A DNA stretch of 64,000 nt from Tridacna crocea (taxonomy: Eukaryota > Mollusca > Bivalvia > Cardiida > Cardiidae). The notes under the pieces are model-generated. The model was given only the letters and a program-made list of their open reading frames with translations, was not told the origin of the DNA and did not search any database. The stretch lies in assembly GCA_943736015.1 (NCBI GenBank), contig OX031060.1:10305501-10369500 (forward strand), given 5' to 3'. Positions within the stretch are counted from its first letter, which is position 1, and each line of letters starts with the position of its first letter. Of this stretch, positions 6,189 to 48,857 are shown one piece after another. The position numbers were made by a program, and so were the translations under genes.

Positions 6189-6409
6189 CCCTTTCCCAAA
6201 CGACAAATTTTTGGACTAGACCAAATTGAAAGCATTTGCAGACGACAATTCAACTCTTGCTGAAAAGATTATTTCTGTCTATGATAGGGTAGAAAACGTT
6301 GTGGGAAAAGGAAAAAATGCTGGTTACCAGCATTTTCTCCTTTTCCCACAATGTTTTCAAAAGGCTACTATTTCAGACCCGTAAAAACCAGGGATTGTTT
6401 GGGAAAGGG
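6189..6409 (+). mobile_element. Intact TTAA-flanked MITE family A (221 bp)
   Basis: Flanked by TTAA at 6,185-6,188 and 6,410-6,413. Ends CCCTTTCCCAAACGACAAAT and TTGTTTGGGAAAGGG form inverted repeats. Central palindrome around 6,335 with GCTGGTTACCAGC. TTAA target plus CCC/GGG termini are the hallmarks of piggyBac-type elements. Copy at 55,940-56,160. Confidence 0.9.
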
Positions 6410-6699
6410 TTAAGAAACCGTGAACGGTTTTACCAAAGGAACCGGTTCATGTTTTTAGTTCATGTTTGGGTGGTTTCAAACTTTGGGTAGTTTACTTGTA
6501 TTGCAAGAGACCAAAGAGTAGTAAACTAAAATCCACAATACGATCCAAAGAAGAGTTACGGCCAAACGTAACTCAGTGTGTTACATATGTTACAATTTCT
6601 CATAGAAATATTACAGACATCGTTTTTATTCTCTGAGAAGTGAAATTTTAGCGTGGTCTATTTAAAAGTACCTTGCAAAAGCAGACGATCGACAGCGAG

Positions 6700-6935
6700 C
6701 ATCTCTTAAAGGGCAAATCCAAAGATTTTTTGACCATACTGTTTTTTTGCTCCAATCAGCTGCAAATCATGGTAGTAAACACGTGTCCATCAGTTTTCAT
6801 AAATACCACCCTGTAACAAGCCATAAATCACGCTCGAATTGTCACACTGATATACGGCCCCAAAAATGGTACATGGCTTACTTCCCCTGATTCGCTTATC
6901 TTCCCTACCTGTGTGACGTCATAGGAGCGTAAGCC
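6700..6935 (+). repeat. Dispersed repeat with TTAAAGGGCAAATC end
   Basis: Begins TTAAAGGGCAAATCCAAAG and ends near GTGACGTCATAGGAGCG. An inverted relative occurs at 9,865-10,075 (CGCTCCTATGACGTCAC ... GATTTGCCCTTTAA) and an inverted fragment at 8,098-8,153. Likely a non-autonomous element of unknown class. Confidence 0.5.
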
Positions 6936-7020
6936 TGTGTTTACAGTCAATAGAAATTAGTAGGAACGCTGATGATTATACGCAGATATCTGAGTATAAA
7001 CAAAGAATTCAGCCGAAAAA

Positions 7021-7370
7021 ATGGTAAATTGTGCAGCCTATGGCTTCAACGTCGAATCCGGAACACATAGAATTAGTATGTTCAAATTTCCGAAGGAATT
7101 AAAAAGGAGGAAACTACGTTTAAACCGGGGCCGGACAGTAACGGCGGATTTTGTGCCATCAGTTCATTCCACATTGTGTCTGAAACACTTCGAGGACAGT
7201 CAGTTCTTAATAAGTCCAAACCTCGTAAAAGAAGTTGGTTATAGAAATATTAGGTTGCGGTTAAAACCTGATGCTATGCCGACATTGTTCGAAACTCCGA
7301 GTCGAAATAAGAACGGCCATAAGACAGACATTCCGCAATGGCAATCTCCAAAAAGAAAAACAAACATAAG
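7021..7370 (+). pseudogene. THAP-domain exon, degenerate
   Basis: Seen: from ATG 7,021 the reading frame gives NCAAYGFN, KFPKE at residues 22-26 and LCLKHFEDSQF at 52-62. This is the C2CH zinc-binding THAP layout (Cys4; Cys53-x2-His56) with the FP motif. The second zinc Cys, expected at residue 9, is Phe, and the invariant Trp near residue 32 is Leu, so zinc and DNA binding are probably lost. A possible donor AAG|GTCAGT lies at 7,370/7,371; the open frame beyond that runs into a palindromic MITE core and has no THAP relation. THAP domains occur in host regulators and in P-element and PIF/ISL2EU-type transposases, so this may be a transposon remnant. A decayed transposase lies 1.2 kb upstream on the same strand. 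Confidence 0.6.
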
Positions 7371-7429
7371 GTCAGTAATTCCTTCAATTGTTTTTCGTAA
7401 CATTTTATCCTTTTCTAGATATCTACATT

Positions 7430-7482
7430 CTGGACAAAGGAGAAATTGGCGCCGTTTTCTCCCTTTTTTTCCCAAATGTTTT
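7430..7482 (+). mobile_element. MITE core fragment within the THAP open frame
   Basis: GGACAAAGGAGAAATTGGCG and CGTTTTCTCCCTTTTTTTCC form a short imperfect hairpin of MITE type, abutting the intact MITE that starts at 7,493. Confidence 0.5.
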
Positions 7483-7492
7483 CAACATTTAA

Positions 7493-7713
7493 CCCTTTAC
7501 CAAGAGACAAAATTTTAGACTGGTCCAAATTAAAAGCACTTGCGGGGAACAAAGTAAATCTAACTGAAAAATTGAAATTTGTTTCCACCAGGATAGAAAA
7601 CATTGTAGGATAAGAAGAAAATGTTGGTTACCAGCATTTTCTCCTTTTCCCACAATGTTTTAAAAAGGCTTCCATCTCAGGGTTGTAAAAACCAGGGTTT
7701 GTTTGGTAAAGGG
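7493..7713 (+). mobile_element. Intact TTAA-flanked MITE family A (221 bp)
   Basis: TTAA at 7,489-7,492 and 7,714-7,717; CCCTTTACCAAGAGACAAAA and TTTGTTTGGTAAAGGG ends; palindromic core. Copy at 57,245-57,465. Confidence 0.88.
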
Positions 7714-7734
7714 TTAATTTGCACATGACATAAA

Positions 7735-8250
7735 AATGGTAATCAAAAAATTGAAATGAAATTTGATTTGGAAAGGATGGAAAACATTATGGGAAAAAGA
7801 GAAAATCTTAGCATTTTCTCTTTTCCTCACAATGTTTTCAAAGGCAACAACATAACGCACTCATCCAAATTCATAACAGATTTTGCAAGTACCAAAGTCT
7901 GGATCGTTTAAATGATGTTAACTTTAAAGTGTTTCAGCTTTTTCTTCCTTTTCCACAATGTTTTCAAAAGGCTTCTTTCTCAGGGTTGTAAAAAACAGAG
8001 GGTCAACTCACCATTCACCAAACACAAAAATTTTAGACTGGTTCAGATTGAAAGCATTTGCAGACAACAAAAGAATTTTGAACCAAAAACATTTGCAGCT
8101 GATTGGAGCAAAAAACAGTATGGTCAAAATATTTTAGGATTTGCCCTTTAAACAGTAAACATCTTTTTCTTCCCACACTGTTTTTCAAATACTCTTTCTT
8201 TGGGTACTGGAAACTAGACCTAGAGTTTGTATGGTAAAGGGTGAAGTCAG
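7735..8250 (+). mobile_element. Mosaic of MITE fragments
   Basis: Three partial family A pieces: core at 7,780-7,845 with shortened arms, a right half at 7,930-8,010, and a left end at 8,020-8,075 (TTTTAGACTGGTTCAGATTG). The inverted dispersed-repeat scrap at 8,098-8,153 and a right end near 8,170-8,245 follow. This looks like nested or rearranged copies. Confidence 0.55.
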
Positions 8251-8557
8251 TATCTGGCTACCCCTAGTCATGGTCATAAATGTTAATCCATCACCGGCCA
8301 TGGTTACATAACATTTGCATATCTCACCCCTTTACACTGTAATGTTTGTTTGTGACAGTAAACCCATGTTACAGCTTTTATCCCATACACTACTCCTCTT
8401 CGACATTTCACTCTTAAAAATGATTTGACAACTAACAATCATTTTGAACAAATTTTGAATTGTATCTTTACACTTCTGATTTGTGGATATTTCCCTGTTC
8501 CTCTCCATATTATGTCTTCTAGACAGGCTACTGAGAGAAATCTTTTGTTTTTACGAC

Positions 8558-8750
8558 CTTTGTGAAGATAGAAAAAACTTTCGAAAACATTCTAGGTAAA
8601 AGAGAAATGCTGCTGACCAGCATTTTCTCCTTTTTCTACAATGTTTTTACCCCATCAAAAACAAGTCCAAACATGCAAGTTAAATTTGATTTGTTGACTC
8701 TAATTGCTTTCAATTCGGTTGAGTCAATAACTTTGATGTTTGGTAATAAT
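8558..8750 (+). mobile_element. Partial MITE family A
   Basis: Core palindrome GAAATGCTGCTGACCAGCAT at 8,600-8,640 with flanks GAAAACATTCTAGG and ACAATGTTTT. It is followed by a rearranged end with GGTAATAATTTAA adjoining the next copy. Confidence 0.55.
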
Positions 8751-8754
8751 TTAA

Positions 8755-8975
8755 TCCTTTCCCAGACGGCAAATTTTGGACCAGACGAAATTCAAAGCAT
8801 TTTGCCGATGACAAATTAACAGTTGCTTAGAAGATGATTTTTCTATATGATAGAGTAGAAAACATTGAGGGAAAAGGAGAAAATGCTTGTTACCAACATT
8901 TTCTCCTTTTCCCACAATGTTTCAAAAAGGCTTCAATTCCTTTCCAATAAAAACCAAGGATTGTTTGGGAAAGGG
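8755..8975 (+). mobile_element. Intact TTAA-flanked MITE family A (221 bp)
   Basis: TTAA at 8,751-8,754 and 8,976-8,979; ends TCCTTTCCCAGACGGCAAAT and TTGTTTGGGAAAGGG; core TGCTTGTTACCAACA. Copy at 58,507-58,727. Confidence 0.86.
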
Positions 8976-9094
8976 TTAAACATGTAAACTTGAGAAACAT
9001 GTCCATACAACTCGTACTAATCTCTTCGGATACTGGTCCCTGTGAACGTAACCAGAACTCGTGCCAAATGTGTGGGATTTTAACCAGCTACCTA

Positions 9095-9265
9095 GTAGAA
9101 AGTAACCTAGTAACCAGCATGATTTATTCTCCTTTTAACACAGTGTTTTACTCTGCTGGAAAAAAAATCAATTTTTGAAATATATAACTTTATTTTGTCG
9201 TCTGCAAGCGATTTCAGTTTGGACCTGTTTAATACTTTGTCGTATGGTAAAGAGTTAAAAATAGA
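9095..9265 (-). mobile_element. Decayed MITE family A
   Basis: TTTGTCGTCTGCAAGCGATT and TCGTATGGTAAAGAGTTAA mark the left end in inverted orientation; the core is damaged (ACCAGCATGATTTATTCTCC). Copy near 58,847-59,017. Confidence 0.5.
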
Positions 9266-9269
9266 AAAT

Positions 9270-9860
9270 ATTGTGGATAAAGGATCAATTGATAGTTACC
9301 CAGAATATAAAATAATTTTGAGAATTGTCTTAATAATCTCGGAACATATTCTTTTATCAAATTTCACGCTTGTTAACAGCATTTCAAACTATTCTTATTC
9401 TCATGAAAATCGCGATCGTGTAACCCTTCACCCATGAGAGAACAAATTTTGTACCTGTCAATGTTTACAGAATTCTTTACATGGTACAAATATAGGATCC
9501 ATCAACAAATAGTTAGAACTAACATCTCACGATTATCAATCGTAAAAGTCAAGAAAAAGGTTATTTGACATGAAACTAAAGTGTTGGAGAAATGTCATGT
9601 ATAGAATATTTCTGTTAGTGACGTTCTCTCCTTAGCCTAATACATGTAAGCGTGATACTCAACACGCTGTTCAAAAGTCTGGCATAACATCGATATTTTC
9701 GACATTAATGGGCGAAATTTTACTTTTATCCTCATCATCAGAAACTATTAAGTTTCATTTAAAATATGGTGGTACATGTACGGCCTTACCGGCCTAGAAT
9801 CGTGTATTTCTTCGTCTCGAATATCGCTCGTTTCACTATCTTAAACAAGGTCCATATTGA
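9270..9860. other. No recognised gene
   Basis: AT-rich intronic spacer. No coding frame, splice pair or repeat recognised beyond its presence in the large duplication. Confidence 0.4.
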
Positions 9861-9864
9861 AACA

Positions 9865-10075
9865 AACGCTCCTATGACGTCACAGATCAAGGTGCGCTAC
9901 AATAAGTAAGGGAGGTAAGCGATGCAAGAAAAACCAATAAGCAAAAATATAAATTGAAAAAAAGTATTTTTACTAATTCTTTTTTCAAATTACAACATTA
10001 CCAGGTTGCCATTTGATAAATGTAGATTTGAAAATTAATCATATCAGAAACTTGTTGATTTGCCCTTTAAATAGC
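9865..10075 (-). repeat. Inverted relative of the repeat at 6,700-6,935
   Basis: CGCTCCTATGACGTCAC at one end and GATTTGCCCTTTAA at the other; GTAAGGGAGGTAAGCGA corresponds to TCGCTTATCTTCCCTAC of the first copy. The middle differs. Confidence 0.45.
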
Positions 10076-10084
10076 AAATTACCT

Positions 10085-10260
10085 TTATCGATAGTCTCGT
10101 AGATTTTGAGACGAACCCCTTGTCTAAACTCCGTACTCCTTGTCAAATATCCGTATTCAGTGTCGGCTTGTACATCTCTTATACTCCCAAAGCCTTTTAA
10201 TTTTCATTCATAAAACCCCAGTAGTCGAAAACCGTCCGACAACACGAGAAATTAGAGATT
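10085..10260 (-). repeat. Dispersed repeat related to 3,465-3,625 and 40,755-40,900
   Basis: Contains GTAGATTTTGAGACGAA, TCAGTGTCGGCTTGTACATC and ATTCATAAAACCCCAGTA; the last block also appears at 40,840-40,860. Element remnant with unclear ends. Confidence 0.4.
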
Positions 10261-10735
10261 TACTACGGCCCAGGTTGACACCAACGGGAGACACGTTCTA
10301 TTTTTAGATGATCAATTCGTTCATTTACATACAGGAATACACAGAAGAAGCTTCAAACATAGCGACGGAAGAAGACATTATGGAAAATAACTATTACCTG
10401 TTTGTTATGATAGGAAATTTGAGCGTTATGAGTCACGTGAAATTCCCACAATGCTTTATTGATTTTTGGCGCGAAATCTAAAAATACCTTAAGAGGCTAC
10501 GTGGCCTTTTAAGGGAATACCATCAGAAAAATCTTTTTTTGCAATTTTATGAATCTTAATTATTGATGATTTTTATTATTTTTTCATAAGAATTTCAGTG
10601 ATATATATATATTTTAATTTGGTGAGATGTAAAATTTCTGAATACCCACCTTTAAGGAAAAAAAGTGAATAATTGTAACATTTTGTTGTTCAAAGTTGTA
10701 AGTATATGAAAAAAGGAATATCATGTTGTAGAAAC

Positions 10736-10872
10736 TTTTCTTGCATTATCTTCCGCTGGATGGCATTTTTGCAACTACGGACCTGTCAAATTTGAGCTTC
10801 CTGGACAATATCTTCCGCTGTGCAATTTTGACAGGCCTTGAAGTAAATGACATGTGCAGACAACTCAAAAAT
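10736..10872 (+). repeat. Short internally deleted copy of the CCGCTAGATGGC repeat
   Basis: Starts CATTATCTTCCGCTGGATGG and ends GACATGTGCAGACAAC, the two ends of the longer family at 25,528-25,890, with most of the middle missing. Confidence 0.45.
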
Positions 10873-10922
10873 GTTATTCTGACATATTCCGCACCTACAT
10901 CTAACCTGGTCTGTATTATATA

Positions 10923-11240
10923 TTGAAAAACAGCCAGTCACGTAATCTAAGCGATGCCCATGTTAATCGATTAGCAATGGAAATATCAGCTAACGTCATA
11001 AAAAGCCTGTTGCTGAAACATGCCAAGCTTAATACTGATAGGCCAAGTCAGAAAATAAACACACAAACTGTTAGTCAACAAAAATGTGTTCAGAAAGGTT
11101 CCGTGAAAACACTTGGTCCCGTTTTACTAAGGCAGTTACGAAGAAAAATTGCATTACATAAAACAAAACAAAAAAAGATTCCAGGAAACGTCGACTTATC
11201 GCAACTGTTTTCTCAAATAATCATGATAGTTATCTCGTGA
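10923..11240 (+). CDS. Unrecognised 105-codon open frame
   Basis: An open frame of 105 residues, basic and rich in K, Q, S and N, starting MKNSQSRNLSDAHVNRLAM and ending at TGA 11,238-11,240. No membrane segment, signal peptide or motif that I know. It sits between two copies of a dispersed repeat (10,736-10,872 and 11,283-11,629) and is not repeated elsewhere except in the large duplication at 60,675-60,992, where one base differs silently (AGCTAA to AGCCAA, around 11,000). It could be an exon of an unknown gene, part of a decayed element, or chance. Confidence 0.2.
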   Translation: MKNSQSRNLSDAHVNRLAMEISANVIKSLLLKHAKLNTDRPSQKINTQTVSQQKCVQKGSVKTLGPVLLRQLRRKIALHKTKQKKIPGNVDLSQLFSQIIMIVIS

Positions 11241-11282
11241 CAGAAATATGCTACCATACTATAGCTACGCAAAACTTTCGCA

Positions 11283-11930
11283 AAGTGCATAGTTATCTTC
11301 CGCTAGATGGCATTCTATAAATACTCATCTATCTAATCTGGGCATCCTGGGTACAGAACCGAACCACTTTCCCATGCGAAAACCGTTACTTTGAATTTCA
11401 CACTAAAATAAACGTTTACTCAATGAAACGCTACCTCGTGTAATTTATTCAGCTATTATCAGCAGTTTAGAGAAATTTGGAGCTAAAGCAGGACTCATTT
11501 CTCTGCAAACGTATTGATGAAAGCTATTTTTTTCCATTGCTACTTTATAGAGCGTAATATTACAGCCTGTCCGCTTTTCTGGCTAGTGATGCGTCATATA
11601 AGACAGGCAGAATCTTCGAAGAATATGACTGATTATTTTTTCGTTTATTTATCGTAGCTATCGGTTGCCCATCTTAGCGACGCCCCCAGAAGACGGTAAG
11701 TTAAGGGGGATAGTGCAAGGATACAGGACGAAACTACTTAGAATTCCACCTGGTTCTTTAACATGCTCGATGTATAGCACCGTCGCACGGGACCTCGGTT
11801 TCACGTCTCATCCGAAAGACTATTAATATTTTTTTTTAGTTGGCTAGCCGAAACATTGTGTTCACGAGTCCCATGCTCTACCTACTGAGCTAATCGGCCG
11901 GTTATGACATGCGCAGACAACTACGCAGAG
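11283..11930 (+). repeat. CCGCTAGATGGC-family element interrupted by a SINE
   Basis: Starts TTATCTTCCGCTAGATGGCA and runs to GAAGAATATGAC (11,629); it resumes as ATGCGCAGACAACT at 11,909. Relatives: 25,528-25,890 (+) and 27,336-27,712 (-). Copy at 61,035-61,682. Confidence 0.6.
11630..11902 (-). mobile_element. tRNA-derived SINE with target-site duplication
   Basis: On the minus strand a tRNA-like head (GGCCGATTAGCTCAGTAGGT, A-box) is followed by a body with TTTCGGATGAGACGTGAAAC and CGAGGTCCCGTG. The B-box part of the head seems deleted. TATGAC flanks it at 11,624-11,629 and 11,903-11,908, and it interrupts another repeat at a site that is continuous at 25,857-25,885. Copy at 61,382-61,654. 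Confidence 0.65.
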
Positions 11931-11981
11931 TGTGTTCGTAACTACTTCAGTAAAACGGGACCTGAAGTAATTACCATTTAA

Positions 11982-12201
11982 CCTTTTCCCAAACGACAAA
12001 TTTTAGATTCTTCCAACATGAAAAAGTTTGTGGACGACAATTTTAACTTTCATTACAATGGCAGAAAATTACTCGAATGGGCATAAAACACTTTGGGAAA
12101 AGGAGAAATTGCTCGTTACGAGCAATTTCTTCTTTTCCCACAGTGTTTTTAAAATACTTGTAATGCAGACACGTAAAAATAAGGGCTTGTTTGGGAAACG
12201 G
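11982..12201 (+). mobile_element. Intact TTAA-flanked MITE family A, ATTGCTCG core
   Basis: TTAA at 11,978-11,981 and 12,202-12,205; CCTTTTCCCAAACGACAAAT and TTTGGGAAACG ends. Core GAAATTGCTCGTTACGAGCA, where the arms differ from the common GCTGG/CCAGC version at matching positions on both sides. Copy at 61,734-61,953. Confidence 0.87.
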
Positions 12202-12209
12202 TTAAGAAA

Positions 12210-12935
12210 GGTAAAGCGGTGAATATCCGGCGAAGAAAAAAATCGTGTAGGTAGATATTAAGCTAAGTGATATAGCAGAGGAACCATACTGACGGTGTTC
12301 TTTAAAAATATATTTAGATAATGTATACATGCAAAGATTTGCTGTAAACGATGGTCCTTTCGGCATACCTCGGGTGATGGGAGCCATCATATCCCTCGGC
12401 TGTAACTGGTGGATTGATAAGTGTAAGATCGGTACATTCATCGCCCGGAAATAAGCCGGTTTACCGTTCTAAAAATTGTAAGGCTATTCTTACAAAAGAA
12501 AACTTGAGTTTCAATTTTCAATCAAAATCTTTCGAACTGTATTTCAGTTGACAAACAGTTCGTACGTTCATTTTTTAACGTGGTTTATCGATTCCGATTG
12601 GAGTTTTCCCCAACAAACAAGCAGATGTGAATAACTTCATCGAGGTTGTTTATGTCGTTTCTAAACAACTGTCAGTGGCGAGCTATATGTAGAATCACGT
12701 GATTCTCATTTCAAAATGGAAATCTCCTTGATACGAACGACGTTTGACGTAGATACGGAATCGGCCGAGCTGTGACGAGTGAACAATGGTCCTATCTTTA
12801 GAATATTTTTCCTGTTAAAAATTAACCATATTACACTTTTAATAATTTGGAGTGAAAAACAAGCTTTATTTATCCATATACATTTATTTACATATCTAGC
12901 AGTTTCTGCTTTCCACTTTTCAGCGATAGAGTTTT
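12210..12935. other. No recognised gene; one small open frame
   Basis: A 41-codon plus-strand frame from about 12,330 to 12,455 (ends WWIDKCKIGTFIARK) has a coding-like look but no known motif. The copy at 62,082-62,207 is identical and so gives no test. The rest is AT-rich spacer. Confidence 0.25.
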
Positions 12936-12938
12936 TTT

Positions 12939-14207
12939 AGCTCACCTGAGCACAACGTGCTCAAGGGGAGCTTTTAGGATCACCAGGTGTCCGTCGTGGG
13001 TCGTCAACAATTCTTTAAACATCAACTCCTCCTAAACCGCAGGGCCAATTTGGACCAAACTTGGCTGGAATGTTCCTTGGGAAGTCCTCTTTCTTCAGAA
13101 ATTGTTCACAGAATTTGATTCCATCAAAAACTCTGGTTGCCATGGCAACCAAATGGAATTTTTTAGCAAATTCTTTAAGAATCTTCTTCTCTGAAACCGC
13201 TGGTCGGATTCTGAAAAAAATTCACAGATATGTTCCTGGGGTGACCCTTTCCAAAACTTGTTCGTGAAATTTTGATCCGTCAAAAAATGTGGCTCTGGTG
13301 AATGGGGGCTACTTGCATTATACAGAAATGAGGGAATTCTTAAAAATTCTTCTCCTCTGAAACCGCTGGTCAGATATTAAAATAATTTCACTGAGATGTT
13401 CTTTGGGTGACCCTTTTCAAAAACTGTTCGCAAAATTTTGATTCGTCAAGATACACAGCTCTGGTGAAAGGGGGCTACTTGCACTATACGCAAATAAAGA
13501 AATTCTTAAAAATTCTTCTCCTCTGAAACTTGGTCAGAATTTGAAATAATTTCACAGAAATGTTCCTTTGATGACCCTTTCCAAAATTGTTCGCGAAATT
13601 TTGATCCGTCGAGAAACACAGCTCTGGTGAATGGGGGCTACTTGCACTATAGGGAAATGAAGAAATTCTTAAAAATTCTTCTTCTCAGAAACCGTTGGGC
13701 AGATTTCGAAATAATTTCACAGAAATGTTCCTTGGATGATCCTTTTCAAAATTTGTTTGCGAAATTTTGATCCATCAAGAAACATGGCTCTGGTGAATGG
13801 GGGCTTCTTGCACTATATGGCTATGAAGAAATTCTTTAAAATTCTTCTTCTCTGAAACGGCTGATCAGATTTTGAAATAATCTCACAGAAATGTTCCGTT
13901 GGTAACCCTTTTCAAAAATTGTTCGCAAAATGTTGATTTGTCTAGAAACATGGATTTGGTGAATGGGTGCTACTTGCACTATTTGGTCTTTAAAATTCTT
14001 TTTCTCTGAACAAAAATTGCTCGAGGAATTTTGATCCATCAAGAAACATGGCTCTGATGGCTGTGGGCTATTTACAATATTCAGACATGAAGAAATTCTT
14101 GAAAATTCTTCAAGTCTAAAATGGCTGATTAGATTTTGAAAAAAAATGGCCATTGTTCTCTCAGAAATTCGGGTGAGCGATCCAGGGCCATCTTGGCCCT
14201 CTTGTTT
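12939..14207 (+). mobile_element. Tandem-core non-autonomous element E1 (pearl/Helentron-like)
   Basis: Left end AGCTCACCTGAGCACAACGT (hairpin GAGCAC/GTGCTC) after a T-run; right end GGTGAGCGATCCAGGGCCAT, hairpin AGGGCCATCTTGGCCCT, then CTTGTTT. GCTCACC and GGTGAGC are subterminal inverted repeats. Between them are about six units of ~164 bp (GAAACCGCTGGTCAGAT ... CTCTGGTGAATGGGGGCTAC). Such layouts are known for bivalve pearl elements and Helentron-derived INEs; the class is inferred. The copy at 62,681-63,785 has one unit fewer. Confidence 0.7.
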
Positions 14208-14477
14208 GGAAATGCGCTCTGTGTTTTTAGAGTCTTAATAGCGACAAAAAAAAATGCAGATGTTTAAATCACACTCTTAATAAGTAGGGAAAATGTGAAA
14301 AAGACAATCTGTTGTAGCTCTGTCGTTTCAAGAATAAGTCTGTAGCAAAAACATGATTTTAAAATCAGGCATAAAATACAGAGAAGATATGGTGGCATGG
14401 CAACTTTTAACCTAATCTTGAAATTAATTTTTCTGCCAGCGTCTAATACTTGTACTGACCGTTGAATAATAGACTTT

Positions 14478-14688
14478 ATTTCATGCTTTCTGGTAGGATA
14501 TCGAGAAATAGAGGTGAAAATATTTTTCGATCTTACACTGGTACCACCAATGAAAATACCGATTCTCACGTTCTTGTTGCCTAGGTAAATTGTGCGTGCC
14601 TGACAACCAGGAAAAGAACTGTACTAGATTTTGATAAAGCTCCTCCCAGAAAGAGTTTAAATCATGAAATAAATAGAATATTTTTTTT
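14478..14688 (+). mobile_element. Hairpin-ended element H1, left part
   Basis: Starts near TTTCATGCTTTCTGGTAGGA and includes GATCTTACACTGGTACCACC, TTCACGTTCTTG and AATAGAATATT. Its hairpin end continues at 15,972 after the inserted element at 14,689-15,971. Confidence 0.65.
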
Positions 14689-15971
14689 AGCTCACCTGAG
14701 CACAACGTGCTCAAGGGGAGCTTTTAGGATCATCCGGTGTCCGTCCTTCGTCGTCCGTCGTGCGTCGCCAACAATTCTTTAAACATCAACTCCTCCTAAA
14801 ACGATAGGCCAATTTGGACCAAACTTGGCTGGATTGTTTCTTGGGAGGTCCTCTTTTAAAAAAAATTGTTCACAGAATTTGATTTCGTCAAAAACTCTGG
14901 TTGCCATGGCAACCAAATGGAATTTTCAAAGAAATTCTTTAATTTCTTTTTTTTTTTTTTTTTTTTTCTGAAACCGCTGGCCAGATTTTAAAATGATTTC
15001 ACAGGGATGTTTCTTGGGTGACCCTTTTCAAAAATGTTCGCGAAATTTTGATCCGTTAAGAAACATGGCTCTGGTGAATGGGGGCTACTCGCACAATACA
15101 GAAATAAAGAAATTCTTAAAAATTCTTCTTCTCTGAAACCGTTGGTCGGAATTTGAAATAATTTCTCAGGGATGTTCTTTTGGTGACCCTTTTCAAAACG
15201 TGTTCGAGAAATTTTGCTATGTCAAGAAACATGGCTCTGATGAATGGGGGCTACTAGCACTATACAAAAATGAAGACATTCCTGAAAATTCTTCTTCTCT
15301 GAAACGGCTGGTCAGATTTCAAAAAAAATTCTCAGGGATGTTCTTTGGGTAACCCTTTTCAAAAATTGTTCGTGAAATTTTGATCCATTGAGAAACATGG
15401 CTCTGGTGAATGGGGCTACTCGCACTATATGGAAATGGAGACATTCTTGAAAATTCTTCTTCTCTGAAACGGCTGGTCAGATTTTAGAATAATTTCACAG
15501 CAATGTTCGTTGGGTGACCCTTTTCAAAAATTGTTCGCGAAATTTTGATATGTCAAGAAACATGGCTCTGGTGAATGGGGGCTACTAGCACTATATAGAC
15601 ATGAAGAAATTATTGAAGATTCTTCTTCTCTGAAACCGCTGGCCACATTTTAAAATAATTTCACAGGGATGTTACTTGAATGACCGATTTCAAAAAGTGT
15701 TCGTGAAATTGTGATCCATCAAGAAACGTGGATCTGGTGAATGGGGTCTACTTGCACTATACAGAAATGAAGAAATTCTTAAAAATTCTTCTTTAATGAA
15801 ACTGATGGTCAGTTTTTGAAATGACTTTTACGGATGACGTTTTGAAAATTACTTGGCAAAATAATAATTTTGTTTCCAATGTTTCAATACCTCCAAAAAA
15901 AAAAAAAATTAGGCTATGGTCCTCTCAAAATTTCAGGTGAGCGATCCAGGGCCATCTTGGCCCTCTTGTTT
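14689..15971 (+). mobile_element. Tandem-core non-autonomous element E2, inserted in H1
   Basis: Same left end (AGCTCACCTGAGCACAACGT) and right end (CCATCTTGGCCCTCTTGTTT) as E1, with ~164-bp core units. It splits a hairpin element in the T-run between AATAGAATATT and CGGTGAAAG; the uninterrupted arrangement is seen at 21,301-21,330. Insertion into T-runs without clear target duplication fits a Helentron-like mechanism. Confidence 0.72.
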
Positions 15972-25228: not shown

Positions 25229-25303
25229 ATATTTCAGGTTTGACAAAGTATAGTATCAGTTACTTCAGACGCCCCGAAAAAGCTTTTAGTTAAGCCCTTT
25301 TAA

Positions 25304-25523
25304 CCCATTACCAAACGACAATATTTTGGACTTGTCCAAATTGAAAGTATTAGCATACGACAAAATAAATGTGAATCAAAAATTGAAGTTTGATTTGGGA
25401 AGGTAGAAAACACTGTGGGAAAAGGAGAAAATGCTGGTTACCAACATTTTCTCCTTTTCCCACAGTGTTTTCAAAAGGCTTCTTTCTCAGGGGCGTCAAA
25501 AGTAGGGATTGTGTGGTAATGGG
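25304..25523 (+). mobile_element. Intact TTAA-flanked MITE family A (220 bp)
   Basis: TTAA at 25,300-25,303 and 25,524-25,527; CCCATTACCAAACGACAATA and GTGTGGTAATGGG ends; core GCTGGTTACCAAC. Confidence 0.88.
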
Positions 25524-30227: not shown

Positions 30228-30455
30228 CCCTTTACCACATGGAAAAAAAATGTTAACTAGCTTTTAATGAAAGCATTTGTATAGAAAAAAAAAAACTAGA
30301 CTTGTTTCAAATAATGGAGTTTGTTACTGAAAGGGAAGAAAACATTTTGGGAAAAGGAGAAAATGCTGGTTACCAGCATTTTCTCCGTTTCCCAAAATGT
30401 TTTCAAAAGCCCTCTTCTTCTAGGTCATTAAAAGTCAGGATTGTATGGAAAGGGA
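30228..30455 (+). mobile_element. TTAA-flanked MITE family A
   Basis: TTAA at 30,224-30,227 and 30,456-30,459; CCCTTTACCACATGG and TTGTATGGAAAGGGA ends; core GCTGGTTACCAGC inside GGGAAAAGGAGAAAATG, with flank CATTTTGGGAAAAGG mirrored as CCCAAAATG: another symmetric change (TTG to TTT). Confidence 0.8.
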
Positions 30456-31931: not shown

Positions 31932-33525
31932 CTATAAACCAGCTAAATACTTATGTTCTACTTTAAACGGCATTTTACGATCAAACAGTTTGACAGGCCG
32001 ATCGTCGTAACCAAACAATTGACAATCTTTCAGCAAAAACTTCCGTAATTTTTCCATATACCGCAATGGAACCGTGCGACAAGCTTGGATAAGTGCCTCC
32101 TCACGCTGTTCCTTGACCCTGAGTTTATTGACAGGTTTATTTAGAGCATTCCGTATAGCTACCATAAACGATTCCTTGGTAACATACACGGCCTCTGACG
32201 GATGGAAGGGGAAAAGGTATGGTCTTGGATAAATATCCCCTGATTTGAAGGTCGGACCATACCCGTAAAGCCATGTAATATAACGGGTAGCCGGTTTCCT
32301 GTATAAAGTTCCAGGTTTTAAACATTAACTTGATGTGTAAGTCAGCTGTGTCAAGTGCTGATTCCTTCTCGAAATCGTTAAAACTGATGTTGGAGTCATT
32401 AAATTTGTGTCGCCAGTCTTGCAGTATATATTCTGCGTCTCTATGGAAACTTTCTAATTTTCCGATAAAATCGTATGGCATCCGACAAGGATTGCACTTT
32501 GAACTCATTGGTGCGAAATGCATGTCTAATTTATACCCTTTCTCCGTGAATTTCACAATAAATTTGATAAACTCCGAAAATTTGATGTCATGGCCGTATT
32601 TTAAGCTCATTTCAGACGGGATGCGTCTCGTTGCCTTGGCAATCTTTGTACCCATAGATTTCCAGTACTACTCGTTCGGACAGTAAATCTTATTCACATA
32701 TCCGGAAAATAACCTTGCGTAAGCAGGACGGGGAATCACGTGACACAACAACAAAAAGAATGACCGACATTTGAAGAAATTCCCCACTTCAGGTAAGAAA
32801 ATCTTCAATAATTCCGTTAATACGTGACCGATTGGAATTTGGTTTGAAGCAGAGAAGGCGGAAGGACTCCGGGGATTTGCTTGATGTGTTAGATTTTTTA
32901 GACAACGCCTGATAAAAAAGTTATTGACGAGCAAACAAATTATCCAGGGTAAAAAAATTGTTTGCTCGTCAATAACTTTTTTATCGGGTGTTGTTTAAAC
33001 AATCTAACACATCAAGCAAATCCCTGGAGTCCTTCCGCCTTCTCTGCTTCAAACCAAATTCCAATCGGTCACGTATTAACGGAATTATTGAAGATTTTCT
33101 TACCTCAAGTTGGGGAATTTTTTCAAATGTCGGGTCATTTTTGTTGTTGTTGTGTCACGTGATTCCCCGCCGCGGTAAGGATTGCGCACAAAAATAAAGG
33201 AACTGACTTTGTTCATGAAATGTTCCATTTCGGACGAATTCATCCTTCTTCTTACACTGTGAAAAGAAGGCAGTGCTGACTGAGCCAGAGTCACTTCGAA
33301 CGGGGACGAAAATTGTCCTCCTCCCTTCATTACTGTTAATGTTCGCTTCCAAAAAGATGACGACACTTTCGGAATGTTGCAGAAAAGAATTGAGTGTTTC
33401 CTCTCCACTAGCAGTGTATCTTGTATTTTGGTTGAGTTGTAGGTCAACGGCTGTGGGGTCCCCTGAATGCTGCATGCTCTTTGTAGATGGTGTTTTCGTA
33501 GTGTGTAAAGATCTCTGATGTTTGT
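31932..33525 (-). pseudogene. Carbohydrate sulfotransferase (Sulfotransfer_2 / HNK-1ST type), disrupted exon
   Basis: Seen: after an acceptor TTTTTGTTTCAG at 33,526, the minus strand encodes IPKVSSSFWKR (33,375-33,343), the 5'-phosphosulfate-binding motif, and FVRNPY (33,192-33,175) at the 3'-phosphate-binding site. Further on come LFSGYVNKIYCPN, the conserved CNPCRMPYDFIGKLE block near 32,490-32,450, LQIRG, and a C-terminal LFGYD block near 31,990. Family role: Golgi type II enzymes that transfer sulfate from PAPS to glycans such as chondroitin. Damage: a 451-bp foldback insertion at 32,724-33,174 directly after FVRNPY, an in-frame TAG at 32,670-32,668, and a one-base frame change near 32,200. 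The N-terminal cytoplasmic and membrane part is not seen and would be in upstream exons. The enzyme subtype is not resolved. Confidence 0.82.
32724..33174. mobile_element. 451-bp foldback element inside the sulfotransferase
   Basis: Seen: two arms of about 215-220 bp (32,724-32,940 and 32,955-33,174) are inverted copies separated by a short spacer near AATTATCCAGGGT. Ends read CAGGACGGGGAATCACGTG on the left and the complement of CGCGGCGGGGAATCACGTG on the right. A five-base duplication GTAAG flanks it (32,719-32,723 and 33,175-33,179). Removing one GTAAG plus the element restores the protein frame across FVRNPY-(A)RLFSGY. The arms differ at scattered positions, so it is not brand new. No coding capacity of its own; family unknown. 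Confidence 0.8.
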
Positions 33526-35099: not shown

Positions 35100-35965
35100 A
35101 TAGGGTTAATTCACTTTTTTGAGGTCGTTAACATTCGCAGAGGCCCGAAAAATGCTTTAACGCCCGAGTGCGAAGCACGAGGGTGTTTTAGTATTTCAAG
35201 AGCCTCTGCGAATGTTAACGATCGAATAAAACGTGAATTAATGCTATTATTGAATAAAGTAGAGGTATTTTGACAATAACTTGCAATAATAGCAAATATA
35301 TTTCCATAGAAATGCAAATAAGCGAACTTCACATGTAGTGTACGTAAATGGGTCAAAACCGGCAGTCGGCGAAGAAGTTTTTGTTACGAGTAGTAAAGAG
35401 CCGTTAGTCCTGTATGCCAGTTAAAATTGATTCCCTCGGTGTAAATACACTTCTATTGATTTTTAATACAAACTGGACTTGTGTGGAATAACCTTGACAC
35501 GTAACTTGGAGGATTATGTACAACTAGGTGGATATGAATTTCAGTAACTGAAAGACGACAGAGGGTTCGATCTACATCAAGAGAGGCGGACCGATCACGT
35601 TAAAAAGTGGGTGGGATGTAGCTGGCTGAGAGTACATTTCATGGGCGAATTTTTGTTCAGATTTCGATCAAACTGAGATCTTGTTCGAAATTATGTTCGT
35701 GGTGTACTAATATCACCAAAGACAAGCCGTGAAAAGGATCCAATATGGTACAAATTCCTACAGTCTGATGGTAGGAGTCTAGGGAAAATCTGAAAAAGGA
35801 CAAAAGTTGTTTATAAGGTAGGCCCGAATCGAGGATATTGATAGTACAAAGCTGGGCGTTAACGGTGCGTGAATTTACTGATTACACGTTTTATCCTGTT
35901 AATGCCCGATTTTTATCCGTTAATACATGCTTATAACAGCCCGAAAAAGCACGTTTTATGCAATA
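35100..35965 (+). repeat. Non-autonomous element copy 1 with terminal hairpins
   Basis: Left hairpin: TTAATTCACTTTTTTGAGGT with CGTTAACATTCGCAGAGGCC, mirrored at 35,198-35,240. Right hairpin: GGGCGTTAACGG mirrored as CTGTTAATGCCC, ending GCACGTTTTATGCAATAATA. A longer middle (35,430-35,810) is absent from copy 2. Confidence 0.6.
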
Positions 35966-39425: not shown

Positions 39426-39439
39426 TAAATAGTGAAAAT

Positions 39440-40285: not shown

Positions 40286-40289
40286 GTGT

Positions 40290-40420: not shown

Positions 40421-40429
40421 CATGTTTTT

Positions 40430-41280: not shown

Positions 41281-41282
41281 TT

Positions 41283-42968: not shown

Positions 42969-42974
42969 TAATTT

Positions 42975-43203
42975 AAATCATTACTAAACTACAAAAGTTT
43001 TAGATTTGCCCAAATCTAGAGCAGTCGTACACTACAACACAAAAGTGACTGAAAATTTGAAAATTGTTTTGTGAAGGGTAGAAAATATTGTGGGAAAAGG
43101 AGAAAATGCTGGTTACCAGCATTTTGTCCTTTTCCCACAATGTTTACTAAGGGCTTCTTTCTCAGGGTCATCAAAAGTAGGGATTGTGTTGTAATGGGTC
43201 GAT
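42975..43203 (+). mobile_element. MITE family A
   Basis: TCATTACTAAACTACAAAAG left end; core GCTGGTTACCAGC; right end GTGTTGTAATGGGTCG; flanks degenerate. Confidence 0.7.
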
Positions 43204-43426
43204 TCATTACTAAACGACAATATTTTAGGCTTGTCCAAATCGAAAGCATTTGCAGACGACAAAGTAAAAAGTGACAGAAATTTGGAAATTTGTTTTGTGA
43301 AGGGTAAAAAATGCTGTGGGAAAAGGAGAAAATGCTGGTTACCAGTTCTCCTTTAACCACAATGTTTTCTAAAGCCTTATTTCTCAAGGTCCTCAAAATA
43401 TAGGGATTGTGTGGTAATCGGTTAAT
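43204..43426 (+). mobile_element. MITE family A, directly adjoining the previous copy
   Basis: TCATTACTAAACGACAATAT left end; the core has lost much of its right arm (GCTGGTTACCAGTTCTCC); right end GTGTGGTAATCGGTTAA. Confidence 0.7.
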
Positions 43427-43591
43427 GCCGTTTTCAGAATTATTTCAGTTTTGTCGGGCGGCCAGTTTTTTCAGGGCATTCCCACATTACCATCGTCGAA
43501 ATAATGATCAGCGAAAAGATAAAGTAATGAGTCCTGTTCCAATGACTATCATTATTCCTTGGAAAGAAATATGCATGAGGATTCTGACTAG

Positions 43592-44312
43592 CGACACCTT
43601 GTCTCATGTCCTGTACGTTACCGACAATACTACCTTGTCTCAAGTCCTGTACGCCACCGACCTTATTACCTTGTCTCAAGTCCTGTACGCTTCCGACCTT
43701 ACTTCCCTGTCTCACGTCCTGTACGTCATCAACCTTACAACCCTGTCTCACATCCTGTGCGCTACCGACCTTACAACCTTGTTTCGCGTCCTGTACGCTA
43801 CCGACTTTACTGCCCTGTCTCACGTCCTGCACGTTACCGACCTTACTACCTGTCTCACGTCCTGTACACTACCAACCTTATTACCTCATCTCACGACCTA
43901 TAGCTACCGACCTAACTACCTCGTCTCAAATCCTTTACGCCACCGACCTTACTACCCTGTCTCAAGTCCTGAACGTTACCGACCTTGGTACCTCGTCTCG
44001 CGTCCTGTGCGTTACCGACCTTGCTACCTCGTCTCGCGTCCTGTACGCTACCGACCTTACTACCTCGTCTTAAATCCTGTACGCTACCGACCGTACTACT
44101 TGTCTCATGTCCTGTACGTTACCAAACTTATTACCTTGTCTCAAGTCTTTTACGCCACCGACCTTACTACCTTATTTCACGCCCTGTCCGCTACAGACCT
44201 TACTACTTTGTCTCACGTCCTGTACGTTACCGACCTTACTACTTTGTTTCAAGCCCTGTACTTTACCGACCTTACTACCTTATCTCACGTCCTCTCCGCT
44301 ACCGACCCGACT
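43592..44312. repeat. 36-bp minisatellite, ~20 units
   Basis: Units such as CTTGTCTCACGTCCTGTACG plus CTACCGACCTTACTAC, mostly exactly 36 bp. Because 36 is a multiple of three, frames stay open on both strands: plus TLSHVLYATDLT-type, minus QDVRQGSKVGSV-type 12-residue repeats. A few 35-bp units break every frame. No start context, splice site or neighbouring domain supports a real protein. Confidence 0.85.
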
Positions 44313-44387
44313 ACCGGACTTGGAAAATGAAAAAGAAAGTATAGTAACTCAAAAGGAATTATCTTGGGATGTAAATCATAACCAGTA

Positions 44388-44645
44388 TAAGAATCAACCA
44401 CTGCAGTCCCTCGATCGTCACATCTGCCATTTCATCCGGCGGAACAAAAGTGACAGCATGCATGTCGTAAAAGGCGACAAAAGGGGCATCATTTTGTGTT
44501 TCGTCCATTCCTCATTTATCATGTTTGTCTTATGTTGTTGCACATGTATGTTATTTTCACCTCGCATTATTGTTTACTAAGTAAGTGCGCCCTATATGAC
44601 CAAAGTTGTCGACGGGCCTTAAAACGCTATTTATTTATTTATTTA
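44388..44645 (+). mobile_element. SINE-like repeat with (ATTT)n tail
   Basis: Close copy of 23,161-23,415 (CCACTGCAGTCCCTCGATCG ... ACGGGCCTTAAAACGC) followed by TTATTTATTTATTTATTTA. Confidence 0.55.
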
Positions 44646-44699
44646 TTTAAATCATAACCAAGGCGAATGACCGATTACACAAGATTTTAATCAATGATT

Positions 44700-45600
44700 T
44701 AATACAGTGAAATTCGAAAAAAAAAATGGAAATTTTAGGAATTTGCTATTAATAACATGGTAAATATATTTCAATTATTCTTAATTTGTTCGCTGTTTTT
44801 GTATTCAAGCTCTTCGAAGGTTTTAACTTTTTTTTATTATTTCTTTTCTAATACAAGTTATTTATTTATCTATTTATCTATTTTTCATCATTTATTCCGA
44901 ATGTTTTATTTCTCCATTGCATATAAAAATCACAGTGTTTTTTTTTTCTAAACTTGTAGTCAAATCTGTGTACAGCAGCCACCGAAGGGGAATTTTAAAA
45001 GTGGCTGTTGTTTACAGATTGGCTGTTGTCCACGATATGGACTACTTGCACTTTATAGTGTTGCGAATATGATGGTTTCGATAGGTAAAGTTCTTTTATT
45101 TCAGTGAACTTTTAGGGTATTTCTATTAAAAAAAGAACAGTAAAATAGTCTTCTGTGCAAGCAGTAATACATAAACAGCTGCAGTCAAAAAGGATGCTGT
45201 TGTGTAGGTGTCGAAACAATAAAGTCATACCCATTAAGTGACTTCTGTCTGCATTAGACAGATAGCTACTATGCACAAGGTAAGTAAAACAGAAATATGC
45301 ACGGATGGACCTGTGTTGGCTGCTTTTCAGATTGTCTGCTGTTCATGTGTGGCTGCTTGCACAAATTTGACTGTACATGACGTCAAAATGTCAATGATCA
45401 TAAGATGTGGAGAGGGATGTCTCCCTCACTCTCAAAAAAAAGTCGCTAAAACATGGAATTGTGTGGTATTGAACTAAGTAAAAAATATATTTGTATGAAA
45501 TCATTCTGATATCTAACAAAGAAATAAGGCTGTATATTTTGCATATATTTGTGTATATTACATAAAATGCGAAAAATAAAATTAAACGGCTTGAAATAGA
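44700..45600. other. No recognised gene
   Basis: AT-rich with TTTATC-type low complexity at 44,862-44,886. A 79-codon frame at 45,238-45,477 is Cys-rich (CCSCVAAC) but has no known motif or splice context; I do not call it a gene. Confidence 0.3.
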
Positions 45601-45609
45601 ACGTTTTAA

Positions 45610-46465
45610 CAGAGGCTCCCCCCTGCTCCCTAACTCCCTCGCTCGTTTGCTCGCTCCCTGCTCCCTAACTTCCTCGCTTGCTTGATCGCCTTCTGCTCCC
45701 TGAATCCCTTCCTAGCTTGCTTGCCTCTTGCTCCCTAACTCCCTCGCTAGCTCGCTCGCCTCGCGCTCTTTAATTTCCTCGCAAGCTTGCTCGCCTTCTG
45801 TCCTACTTTGCTCGCTCACCTCCAACTCCCAAACTCGCTAGCTTGCTTGATCGCCTCCTGCTCCCTACTGCCTTGCTAGCTTGCTCGCCTCCCGCTCTTT
45901 AACTTCCTCGCTCGCTTGCCCGCCTCTTGCTCCTTAACTGCCTCACCAGCTTGCTCGCCGCCCGCTCTTCAACTTCCTCGCTAGCTTGCTCGCCTTCTGT
46001 TCCCTAATTCCCAAACTTGCTCGCCTCCCGCTCTTTAACTTCCTCGCTCGCTTGCTCGCCTCTTGCTCCTTAACTGCCCCGCTAGTTTGCTTGCCTCCCG
46101 CTCTTTAACTTCCTCGCTCGCTTGCTTGCCTCTTGCTCCTTGACAGCCTCGCCACCTTGCTCGCCTCTCGCTCTTTAACTTCCTCGCTCGCTTGCTCGCC
46201 TCTTGCTCCTTAACTGCCACGCTAGCTTGCTCTCCTCCCGCTCTTTAACTTCCTCGCTCGCTTGCTCTCCTCTTGCTCCTTAACAGCCTCGCCAGCTTGC
46301 TCGCCGCCCGCTCTTTAACTGCCTCGCTAGCTTGCTCGCCGCCCGCTTTTTAACTTCCGCGCTAGCTTGCTCGCCTTCTGTTCCCTAATTCCCTAACTTG
46401 CTCGCTCACCTCCTGTTCCCAAACTCGCTAGCTCGCTTGCTTGCCTCCTGCTCCCTAACTCATGC
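45610..46465. repeat. ~35-bp minisatellite, ~24 units
   Basis: Units like CTCGCTAGCTTGCTCGCCTC plus CCGCTCTTTAACTTC, 33-37 bp, with strong C+T bias. Frames through it do not stay open for long because 35 is not a multiple of three. Confidence 0.88.
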
Positions 46466-46479
46466 TCTCCCAAGCTTCC

Positions 46480-48625
46480 ACTAGTTTTTCTTGATTATGT
46501 CATGGATTTCAAATTCAAAATCATTATTTGTTTCCAACATATTTCAAGACCAGAAAAAAATAAAAGATTTCAAAACGCTCAAGATCATAAATCCGTTAAC
46601 AAAGATAAGGCTGCAAAAAAGCATGGTGGCATCAAAGATTAGGCTGCAAAAAACAGGGTGACATATATATTTCAATTACAAAGGTGGTAAGCATGACGTT
46701 TTCTCTGGAAGAATTTTACAAAACACATCGAAATCATTAAATCTTTCTCAAGCAGCAAATTCTAGACTTCTCTAAATTCAAAGCATCTGCAGACGACAAA
46801 TCTGAAAAAAAGTACGAATAAAATGGAATTATTTCGTAGATTATCTCTCCAAGGCTCGAAAATTATCAATTGTCCCAACATCGTTAAATAGTTTTAACAA
46901 CTCGACATAATGTACTTCTTCTCTATTTATGTAGTTGGTAGTAAAACAGTCAATTCAGTCAAATACGAATACAAAAAAAAAACATGTTCATTTTATTTTT
47001 CAAAAAACAAAAAGCATTAAGTATCTTTTCCTGCCAAATTAGTCAAATTCATGACGTTGCAATGCTCTGCGAGGGGATTTAACTCTTTCGGCGCCAAGTG
47101 CTATATATTCGACCTCTTTCGACGGCCAATTTAAATACACTTCACTGAAAGAACATTCTATTGATATCGGATAAAATCAATATCTGCATAGAATCAACTT
47201 TTGAAAAATTAAAAAAAAAACATGACAAATAATACATGTAGATGAAATAAGTACAAATACACTAACAATGGGTTTTTCGTGCCTCGTCATGCTGGCCGAA
47301 ACTGTTAGGATTTTGGCAAAAGACACGAATGTCAATACACAGACGTTACGTAGTCCGTCTACACAACTATTCTCCACAGACGATACACGTACTAGGCTGG
47401 TACGGGGGAAAATCTGCAGAGTTGTTTTGGACAGTTAGGTAACGCCCGTATATTCACAGATCGAAATAATTCATTGTAAGGTTGGGAATTAGGGTAGTGG
47501 ACCCGTAATACTTCTAGTGCAGCATGGCATAAAATTTCTTGACAGTTGATAAAGACAGAGTTTTACTACAGATAAAATACTTTTGCACGTTTTTAACCGA
47601 CCAGAAATTCCTTTGATGTCTATCTTGAAATTGATTGTTGATACTTTTGGTAGCTTCCAGAAAAGGGAGGTAACTATCATAATCCCTTTATAATGAGAAT
47701 ATAGTGGTTTTAGATATATAAATGATAATTCTAGGAAGGACAAAAAGGAAAAGGTGGTGAAAGAAGTAAAACAAAATACTCATTTTCAATCTTAGCAAAT
47801 TTTGTAGCATACTATGATATTAGAAATGGCTATTTTCTATTACGAGTCCACCACGTGTGAATAACCAAAGATATTTAAAAAATCATAGTTTTCCGGTACA
47901 AATTTAATTTTATTTGATATTTTCACATGGCTTCTCTCTGTCCATCATATATCCTACTGTGAAGAGACGTTACTCCTTATTCCTCCTAAGGGAGACCACC
48001 AATACACAAATAATTTTAACTGTGTCACGGGTTCTTTCCCTTCAACAAAAAAAGGTATTTATTTACTTTTAACTTTTAAGCAAGTATTTGAATAATATTT
48101 CTCTTTTTCTTTCAAATTATTAATTCCACACAATGGCTTTCTTGACAAATACCACTTCAGTGTTCTCGACGCTTTGATAAAAAATCTAGACCGGTTTTAC
48201 AGCAAAACGAGCTGTGCTCGTAATTACCTTTACCAACTCCTGGTGAAATTTTCAGAAGTTTTGACACTTTTACATTCTTATGTAAGTACAATAACTTTTG
48301 TCGCAATTTATTTGAACAGCAAAAGCTGAAGCTTTTGATTGCCCTGTCTCGTTTGTTTTTTATTTCGATGATTCAATATCGGGGGCAATTCATCAAACAA
48401 TTTACGAAAACAATCCTCATGCAAGTACAGCAACTGTTAATTGAATAGCAAAAACTTTAACTGTTGAGGCATTATCTTGTTTTTATTTGGATTTATTGTT
48501 GTAGATTAATTTCTACGGTCAAAAAGACACAGAGTCTTAAGGGTTACTGCCCTATGACTGTGACCAAACATCAGTTAACCTAATTCTGGGCTGACTTAAA
48601 AAATCGTAGCGAAAAAAAAATACAT
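46480..48625. other. No recognised gene; one MITE end
   Basis: 46,738-46,812 holds a MITE left end (TTAAATCTTTCTCAAGCAGC and GCATCTGCAGACGACAAATC). The remaining 1.8 kb is AT-rich without supported coding, RNA or repeat features. Confidence 0.35.
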
Positions 48626-48632
48626 GTATAAC

Positions 48633-48857
48633 CCTTTCCCAAAACGACAAATTTTAGACTCTTCCAAACCGAAAGAGTTAGCAGACGACAATTTTAGATT
48701 ATGACAAAATGGCACAAATTTCTTAAAAAGGGTAGAAAAACACTGTGGGAAAAGGAGAAATTTCTCGTTACGAGCAATTTCTCGTTTTCCCATATAGTTT
48801 TCAAAAGACTTTTACTGCAGACACATAAAAACCTGGACTTCTTTGGGAAAGGGTTAA
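48633..48857 (+). mobile_element. MITE family A at the border of the older duplicate
   Basis: ACCCTTTCCCAAAACGACAA left end and TTCTTTGGGAAAGGGTTAA right end; core GAAATTTCTCGTTACGAGCA. The left flank is TATA rather than TTAA. It abuts the diverged copy that begins at 48,858. Confidence 0.78.

Follow-up and report, generated by a model that had tools for sequence, protein, structure and literature searches.

Are the two arms of a hairpin in a mobile element kept matched because the hairpin itself is needed, or because the arms copy each other? The question is raised by a 64,000-nt stretch of the genome of Tridacna crocea (contig OX031060.1, positions 10,305,501−10,369,500; the window), in which a family of TTAA-flanked miniature inverted-repeat transposable elements (MITEs) carries a central palindrome. 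The original prediction, made from the letters of the window, had noted arm changes at mirrored positions and offered both explanations. When copies from the window and from other genomic stretches were compared, the first was found to fit better: paired changes lie mostly on large clades, and the palindrome outlasts the body between subfamilies. Copying between arms can explain a slight surplus of rare variants changed on both sides. The sequences lean slightly towards the family being a piggyBac-type MITE whose central palindrome acts in cis to promote copy amplification.

Paired changes in the palindrome arms

The element is about 225 bp long (profile model length 225), TTAA-flanked and putatively non-coding. 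Its palindrome, at model positions 106−172, comprises 67 nt with a one-base centre; location and centre were as originally described, and the arms are 33 nt each rather than 32. The predicted stem of the copy with its palindrome at 30338−30404 has an energy of −33.7 kcal/mol (z −12, DNA parameters). Inside the TTAA, the consensus ends CYCTTTACCA (left) and TGGTAAAGGG (right) constitute short terminal inverted repeats. Among 193 full copies, the left end had C in 176, then T in 113 or C in 76, then C in 176, and the three right-end bases were G in 182, 162 and 184. The most frequent left end was CTC, not CCC; the CCC...GGG-type terminal motif was counted as present.

A profile made from the copy at 25,300−25,527 was searched against 334 kb of non-redundant DNA, window positions 49,752−64,000 and stretches L001, L002, L007 and part of L015 having been dropped as duplicates before counting. 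The search returned 443 copies or fragments without overlap, including 236 near full length, and a reversed-sequence control returned 0 matches. Stretches L003−L030 had been selected for their similarity to a single copy of the window and therefore favour its subfamily. Stretches L031−L050, twenty in number and 10 kb each, were taken at preset coordinates: 10 Mb for 17 contigs and 50 Mb for three. The 204 copies without a gap-free palindrome were excluded from the arm comparison, leaving 239, and 25 of these with too little body were left out of the tree, leaving 214.

In the 239 gap-free palindromes, mirrored double changes numbered 174, compared with 34.2 expected from column frequencies and 9−22 when the partners were slid by 1−3 columns. 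A test of the window only, using the 16 palindromes with arms 34 apart and excluding the duplicated part, gave 17 cells changed on both sides compared with 5.6 in shuffles (0 of 500 reached 17) and 0−5 when slid. Relative to the ten nearest copies by body, 55 mirrored pairs were found against 11.7 expected and 6−16 slid; 16 of these 55 were at pair 26, a subfamily marker. The individual examples first reported were recovered at GCTCG/CGAGC (11,982), GCTTG/CAAGC (18,268), AGGTGAAA/TTTCACCT (17,568; 23,488), GGGGAAA/TTTCCCC (21,725) and CATTTTG/CAAAATG (30,228). For GCTGG/CCAGC at 25,304 the left arm was as given; the right arm reads CCAAC, which leaves one mismatch.

A tree was then built from body sequence only, and arm changes were placed on it by parsimony. 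It carried 35 paired events, compared with 1−7 across six slid versions, so the expectation of paired substitutions beyond phylogeny held; nine were on internal branches (0−1 slid) and 26 on terminal branches (1−6 slid). One-sided changes numbered 41 on internal and 566 on terminal branches, and 19 terminal double changes were unpaired. This placement indicates that paired changes arose more than once, yet that most single changes were one-sided. With pair 26 excluded, 26 of the 39 mirrored changes were transitions, a share between the predictions of stepwise compensation and of arm copying. Wobble cells were strand-symmetric (384 sense, 358 antisense), a comparison of little power.

Comparing large with small clades gave a firmer result than the singleton rates reported below. 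Internal branches leading to clades of at least six copies held eight paired changes (pairs 26, 3 and 8 twice each, 13 and 20) and seven one-sided changes (clade sizes 19, 17, 16, 11, 10, 6 and 6), compared with one paired and 34 one-sided changes for clades of 2−5 copies. Paired states were thus inherited in large clades.

Alleles were also binned by the number of copies carrying them, and the ratio of variation inside to outside the palindrome was calculated per site. In a young cluster of 57 copies this ratio was 0.88 for singletons, 0.58 for alleles in two copies, and 0.17, 0.38 and 0.35 for alleles in 3−4, 5−9 and at least 10 copies. Singletons differed from alleles in at least three copies in this cluster (Fisher, p = 0.0097) and in sets of 74 (p = 0.0012) and 153 copies (p = 5e-12); the singleton ratio of 1.9 in the 153-copy set is explained by saturation of the body sites. 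A mirrored partner was present in 2/44, 1/45 and 3/65 carriers of singletons in the 57-, 74- and 153-copy sets, and in 40/44, 52/57 and 65/121 carriers of alleles found in at least 10 copies. Four alleles of the young cluster found in 3−9 copies were C-to-T or G-to-A changes and may be recurrent. Post-insertion repair, considered as a source of the conservation, is disfavoured; the edge of the palindrome is sharp, and singletons showed no clear depletion in the young cluster with most copies, although the unbiased subset described below has little power on this point.

Exact 31-nt cores were counted genome-wide on both strands. Cores with both common arms numbered 183,553 and those changed at pairs 3 and 8 in both arms (CT|CT) 9,565, compared with six hybrids of a changed left and a common right arm, this one orientation being counted. 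The two-arm forms therefore exist as large lineages, and the counted mixed-arm form does not. Changes at pair 3 alone were found on both sides in 13 cores, on the left only in 255 and on the right only in 296; the chance expectation for the both-sided form is 255 × 296 / 183,553 = 0.41. Pair 8 alone was changed on both sides in 33 cores. At pair 10 there were 289 double variants, and among the 100 listed, 93 were mirrored (87 C/G, 3 G/C, 3 T/A), each of the seven unmirrored ones being one step from C/G. Left-only variants at pair 10 numbered 1,410, with 31 T, 36 C and 33 G among the 100 listed, an even split in which no one-sided type stands out. A cross-control combining the unpaired positions left pair 10 and right pair 5 gave 62. 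The residual excess of rare paired forms amounts to about 1−2.5% of the one-sided variants and could be caused by arm copying or by small lineages. The left-only variants at pair 10 were unequal between strands (821 and 589; common core 91,934 and 91,619), possibly through a local array of one variant. Searches for the exact 31-nt core in collections of viral contigs and of genome contigs gave 0 and 0 matches.

Conservation, abundance and TTAA insertion

Compared with the ten nearest copies by body, variation in the palindrome and in the body was 0.037 and 0.122 for A, 0.082 and 0.132 for C, 0.074 and 0.161 for G, and 0.040 and 0.140 for T. For each base, positions in the palindrome were therefore 1.6−3.5 times less variable than those in the body, and divergence fell abruptly at the arm edges. 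When four groups were defined by the left arm, their consensuses were identical at 55 of 66 palindrome columns (107−172), at 10 of 13 left and 11 of 17 right end columns, and at 16 of 93 left and 13 of 36 right body columns, the bodies being nearly unrelated. This pattern corresponds to an element of fixed ends and a fixed palindrome within changeable filler. The earlier subfamily consensuses had been built from copies symmetric at five pairs, where pairing arises by construction. An independent regrouping that used only body sequence (cut 0.3) gave five clusters of at least five copies. The arms matched fully in four of the five consensuses, and seven of eight changed pairs were mirrored: three clusters had the common palindrome, one was changed at pairs 3, 8 and 26, all mirrored, and the fifth was mirrored at pairs 3, 8, 13 and 20 and one-sided at pair 21, giving an A-C mismatch.

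Stretches L031−L050 contained 243 copies or fragments, 1 to 28 per stretch, covering 21.6% of the sequence (15−28%, bootstrap over stretches). Extrapolated to the genome of 1.05 Gb in 31 contigs, this corresponds to approximately 1.27 million copies or fragments (0.92−1.65 million). Of the 193 full copies with flanks, 162 had TTAA on the left side, 150 had it on the right and 131 had it on both. One copy, L050:6014-6239, is inserted in another repeat, four empty paralogues of which (window:10459-10560 and others in L050, L039 and L011) carry a single TTAA at the joint. The TTAA target, CCC/GGG-type ends and mobility proposed at the outset are in accord with these copies and empty sites. The target duplication was read as TTAA; a shorter duplication with conserved outer bases would look identical. 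Across all 48 searched stretches, for 28 of 163 neighbouring copy pairs with intact facing ends, the two copies had one TTAA in common or lay at most 4 bases apart, indicating that copies often insert at each other's ends and form chains.

Explanations for the matched arms

The arm pairing is best read as mainly inherited, with little arm copying. If the palindrome favours amplification in cis, copies with a broken arm would decay where they were inserted and would seldom start large lineages, and purifying selection on source copies would leave paired variants to reach high copy number. Within a pool of about one million copies, a second hit may restore pairing or, more rarely, one arm may be copied onto the other by a template switch; amplification would then spread the paired variants. 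Since chance second hits would restore pairing among so many copies, stepwise compensation needs no special mutation. In the donor or the excised element, DNA folded into a hairpin or cruciform would likely be the active form, which the transposition machinery would recognise or tolerate. Amplification would accordingly be the step under selection, DNA rather than RNA the folded molecule, and a piggyBac transposase the probable enzyme. More tentatively, and with considerable doubt, the DNA hairpin may be an obligate or near-obligate amplification signal in which base pairing itself is selected, the shared core enabling bodies of no common origin to turn into MITEs and to occupy a fifth of the genome. 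The piggyBac transposase family PF13843 had 118 matches in the genome, 26 of which cover at least 340 of 349 positions and are stop-free. A diverged relative of the element (a hairpin remnant and right end, recognised by eye) adjoins a piggyBac transposase gene at L051:1-107 (C15).

Several observations weigh against a palindrome maintained for amplification. On internal branches, one-sided changes outnumber paired ones (41 to 9), seven of them on clades of 6−19 copies. The high proportions of paired carriers, 40/44 and 52/57, come from pair 26 only, counted on each of its sides, and alleles in 3−9 copies were mirrored in 0/20, 0/35 and 14/199 carriers. In the unbiased subset (the window and L031−L050; 123 copies, low power), the singleton contrast was significant for the 42-copy cluster (p = 0.006) and not for clusters of 11, 16 and 25 copies (p 0.32−0.64), and singleton ratios were 0.43−0.81, not 1. 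From this subset, equality of singleton rates cannot be taken as established, and one-sided variants do become moderately numerous. The CTTCT subfamily retains its A-C mismatch at pair 21, so pairing is not absolute. Letters are conserved and not pairing alone, as a protein site would also produce. Finally, the 700-bp 3' flanks of four piggyBac clusters contained no matching end belonging to the cluster itself, and no autonomous partner was found there.

It is unlikely that the arms are merely homogenised, without function, by template switching or arm-to-arm conversion that copies or erases a mutation in one arm. Such a process, published for RNA stems (available text of PMC8794818), would account for the 13 cores changed from G.C to C.G at pair 3 alone where 0.4 were expected, the 33 both-sided cores at pair 8 (a both-sided count alone), the 3 G/C and 3 T/A forms among the 100 listed doubles at pair 10, and the excess of paired changes on terminal branches (26, compared with 1−6 slid); four of the five diagnostic pairs are transversions, for which it requires no wobble step. 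However, neutral copying leaves the per-site rate unchanged and so fails to account for a palindrome 1.6−3.5 times less variable than the body and common at 55 of 66 columns to groups with unrelated bodies. The ratio of paired to one-sided forms at pair 3 (13/551) places in-place copying at about 1−2.5%, singletons were paired in only 2/44, 1/45 and 3/65 carriers, and the transition share of 26/39 sits between both predictions. That the arms are half-sites for a dimeric DNA-binding protein, either the cysteine-rich domain of the transposase or a host factor, and change together with its preference is also quite improbable. The 19-bp palindromic internal repeats of piggyBac are bound by a dimer of the C-terminal domain (available text of PMC7351741), the letters here are conserved as well as the pairing, and the symmetric wobble counts (384 and 358) give no sign of an RNA strand. 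However, 67 nt conserved to the arm edges would be long for a dimer site, and paired changes scattered over many positions are more in keeping with pairing than with protein contact at a few bases.

The palindrome could instead be a recently exchanged module around which bodies were swapped, its similarity and few paired differences reflecting recent shared descent. Ends and palindrome do agree between subfamilies whose bodies are almost unrelated, but the palindrome remains 1.6−3.5 times less variable relative to body neighbours and the paired changes recur on several branches, which makes this explanation very improbable. A function of an RNA hairpin, for example in small RNA production or in RNA-level excision from transcripts, appears more remote still. 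The predicted fold of 30338−30404 is strong (−33.7 kcal/mol, z −12), and the inverted repeats that DNA transposons carry reportedly cause excision from mRNA (cited in the available text of PMC13155455). However, selection on resident copies would deplete singletons, which were not clearly depleted (less clear in the unbiased subset), and the wobble pairs are without strand bias. A search of the whole window with Rfam at gathering scores gave 0 matches.

Known systems and the copies in the window

Like MITEs of the piggyBac superfamily, the element has a TTAA duplication, CCC/GGG ends and short imperfect terminal repeats, and is putatively non-coding. A long conserved central palindrome is not known as a usual part of piggyBac ends. 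The 19-bp palindromic repeat of piggyBac sits near the ends (available text of PMC7351741), whereas the palindrome here is central. The closest published precedent found was the CMITEs of Acropora corals (Wang et al. 2010, PMC2872659, available text), which measure approximately 100 bp, have an internal region of 75 bp and are estimated at 1,600 copies in A. millepora; a role in transposition was proposed for that internal region. They are likewise TTAA-flanked piggyBac-type MITEs with CCC ends and tandem arrays of copies, and their internal region also exceeds the terminal repeats in conservation between families, here by a modest margin (55/66 compared with 10/13 and 11/17). In contrast to the CMITEs, the present element is 225 bp long, with a 67-nt palindrome and about 1.3 million copies or fragments; no word starting with 'palindrom' or 'hairpin' occurs in the available text of PMC2872659. 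As in hairpin maintenance by template switching, described for RNA genes in the available text of PMC8794818, mirrored changes keep the stem paired; here, unlike there, a pool of dead copies separates inherited from later changes, and copying in place seems to play a minor part.

It has long been asked why some MITEs become extremely numerous, and internal sequences have come under suspicion with no mechanism to go with it. Stowaway MITEs belong to a different superfamily and are not known to carry a covarying hairpin. For one of them, the internal sequence is reported to affect transposition (Yang et al. 2009, as cited in the available text of PMC11707139 and PMC2872659). In searches of open-access titles and abstracts, with subscription journals mostly out of their reach, none described a TTAA MITE with an internal hairpin that covaries; relative to known TTAA MITEs, the new part is the pairing evidence. 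About a million copies log which changes were carried on amplification and which arose later, so that selection on the hairpin can be separated from mutation, and they form a natural data set for measuring template switching at a palindrome.

The profile search found 45 non-overlapping copies or fragments in window positions 1−49,751. Of these, 39 lie at 6,186−48,857, where the same family had been counted as about 35. The principal copies are as follows (window coordinates, strand, description).

783−1005, +, near full-length copy; palindrome 889−955
2100−2322, +, full-length copy, diverged (profile search)
6186−6411, +, full-length copy; palindrome 6292−6358
7490−7715, +, full-length copy; palindrome 7596−7662; a second fragment starts at 7717
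8752−8977, +, full-length copy; palindrome 8858−8924
11979−12203, +, full-length copy, GCTCG/CGAGC type; palindrome 12084−12150
16715−16917, −, copy spanning model positions 25−224 (profile search)
17566−17791, −, full-length copy, CTTCT subfamily (AGGTGAAA/TTTCACCT); palindrome 17619−17685
18265−18489, +, full-length copy, GCTTG/CAAGC; palindrome 18370−18436
20555−20778, −, full-length copy; palindrome 20608−20674
21710−21798, +, fragment; palindrome remnant GGGGAAA/TTTCCCC
23575−23708, +, right part of a CTTCT-subfamily copy; palindrome 23589−23655
25301−25525, +, best-scoring copy of the window; TTAA at 25300−25303 and 25524−25527; palindrome 25406−25472
25886−26083, −, diverged copy; palindrome 25937−26003
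26862−27080, +, near full-length copy; palindrome 26961−27027
30225−30456, +, full-length copy, CATTTTG/CAAAATG; palindrome 30338−30404
30494−30724, +, full-length copy; palindrome 30598−30664
31360−31560, +, copy of 201 bp with both ends present (profile search)
38076−38442, both strands, two copies joined end to end, 38076−38242 (+) and 38241−38442 (−)
40059−40279, +, near full-length copy (profile search)
42974−43200, +, full-length copy; palindrome 43081−43147
43204−43423, +, near full-length copy directly after the preceding one (profile search)
48629−48855, +, full-length copy, GCTCG/CGAGC type but with TTTCTCGT; palindrome 48736−48802

Window positions 1−14249 and 49752−64000 are mutual copies about 49,751 bases apart, and the element at 25,300 recurs at C5:10281047 and C5:10379924 (the window being C5:10305501-10369500). 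This is either an artefact of assembly or a tandem segmental repeat in which a unit of about 50 kb occurs three or more times. Two other hairpin repeat families were seen, one (CGGTGAAAGATCGAAATTTATTTCATCG...) at 15966−16312, 21314−21435 and 39770−39956, and one at 35115−35231 and 35984−36104 with arms 3 and 17 bases apart. Arrays of a 166-bp tandem repeat lie at 13168−13982, 14967−15822, 41284−42910 and 62911−63560. An inverted repeat at 32774−33122 (168-nt arms, 93% complementary, 13 nt between) adjoins sulfotransferase-like frames on the minus strand at 32137−32667 and 33100−33603 (Sulfotransfer_2). A THAP-domain open frame is located at 7000−7518 on the plus strand, with a duplicate at 56752−57270.

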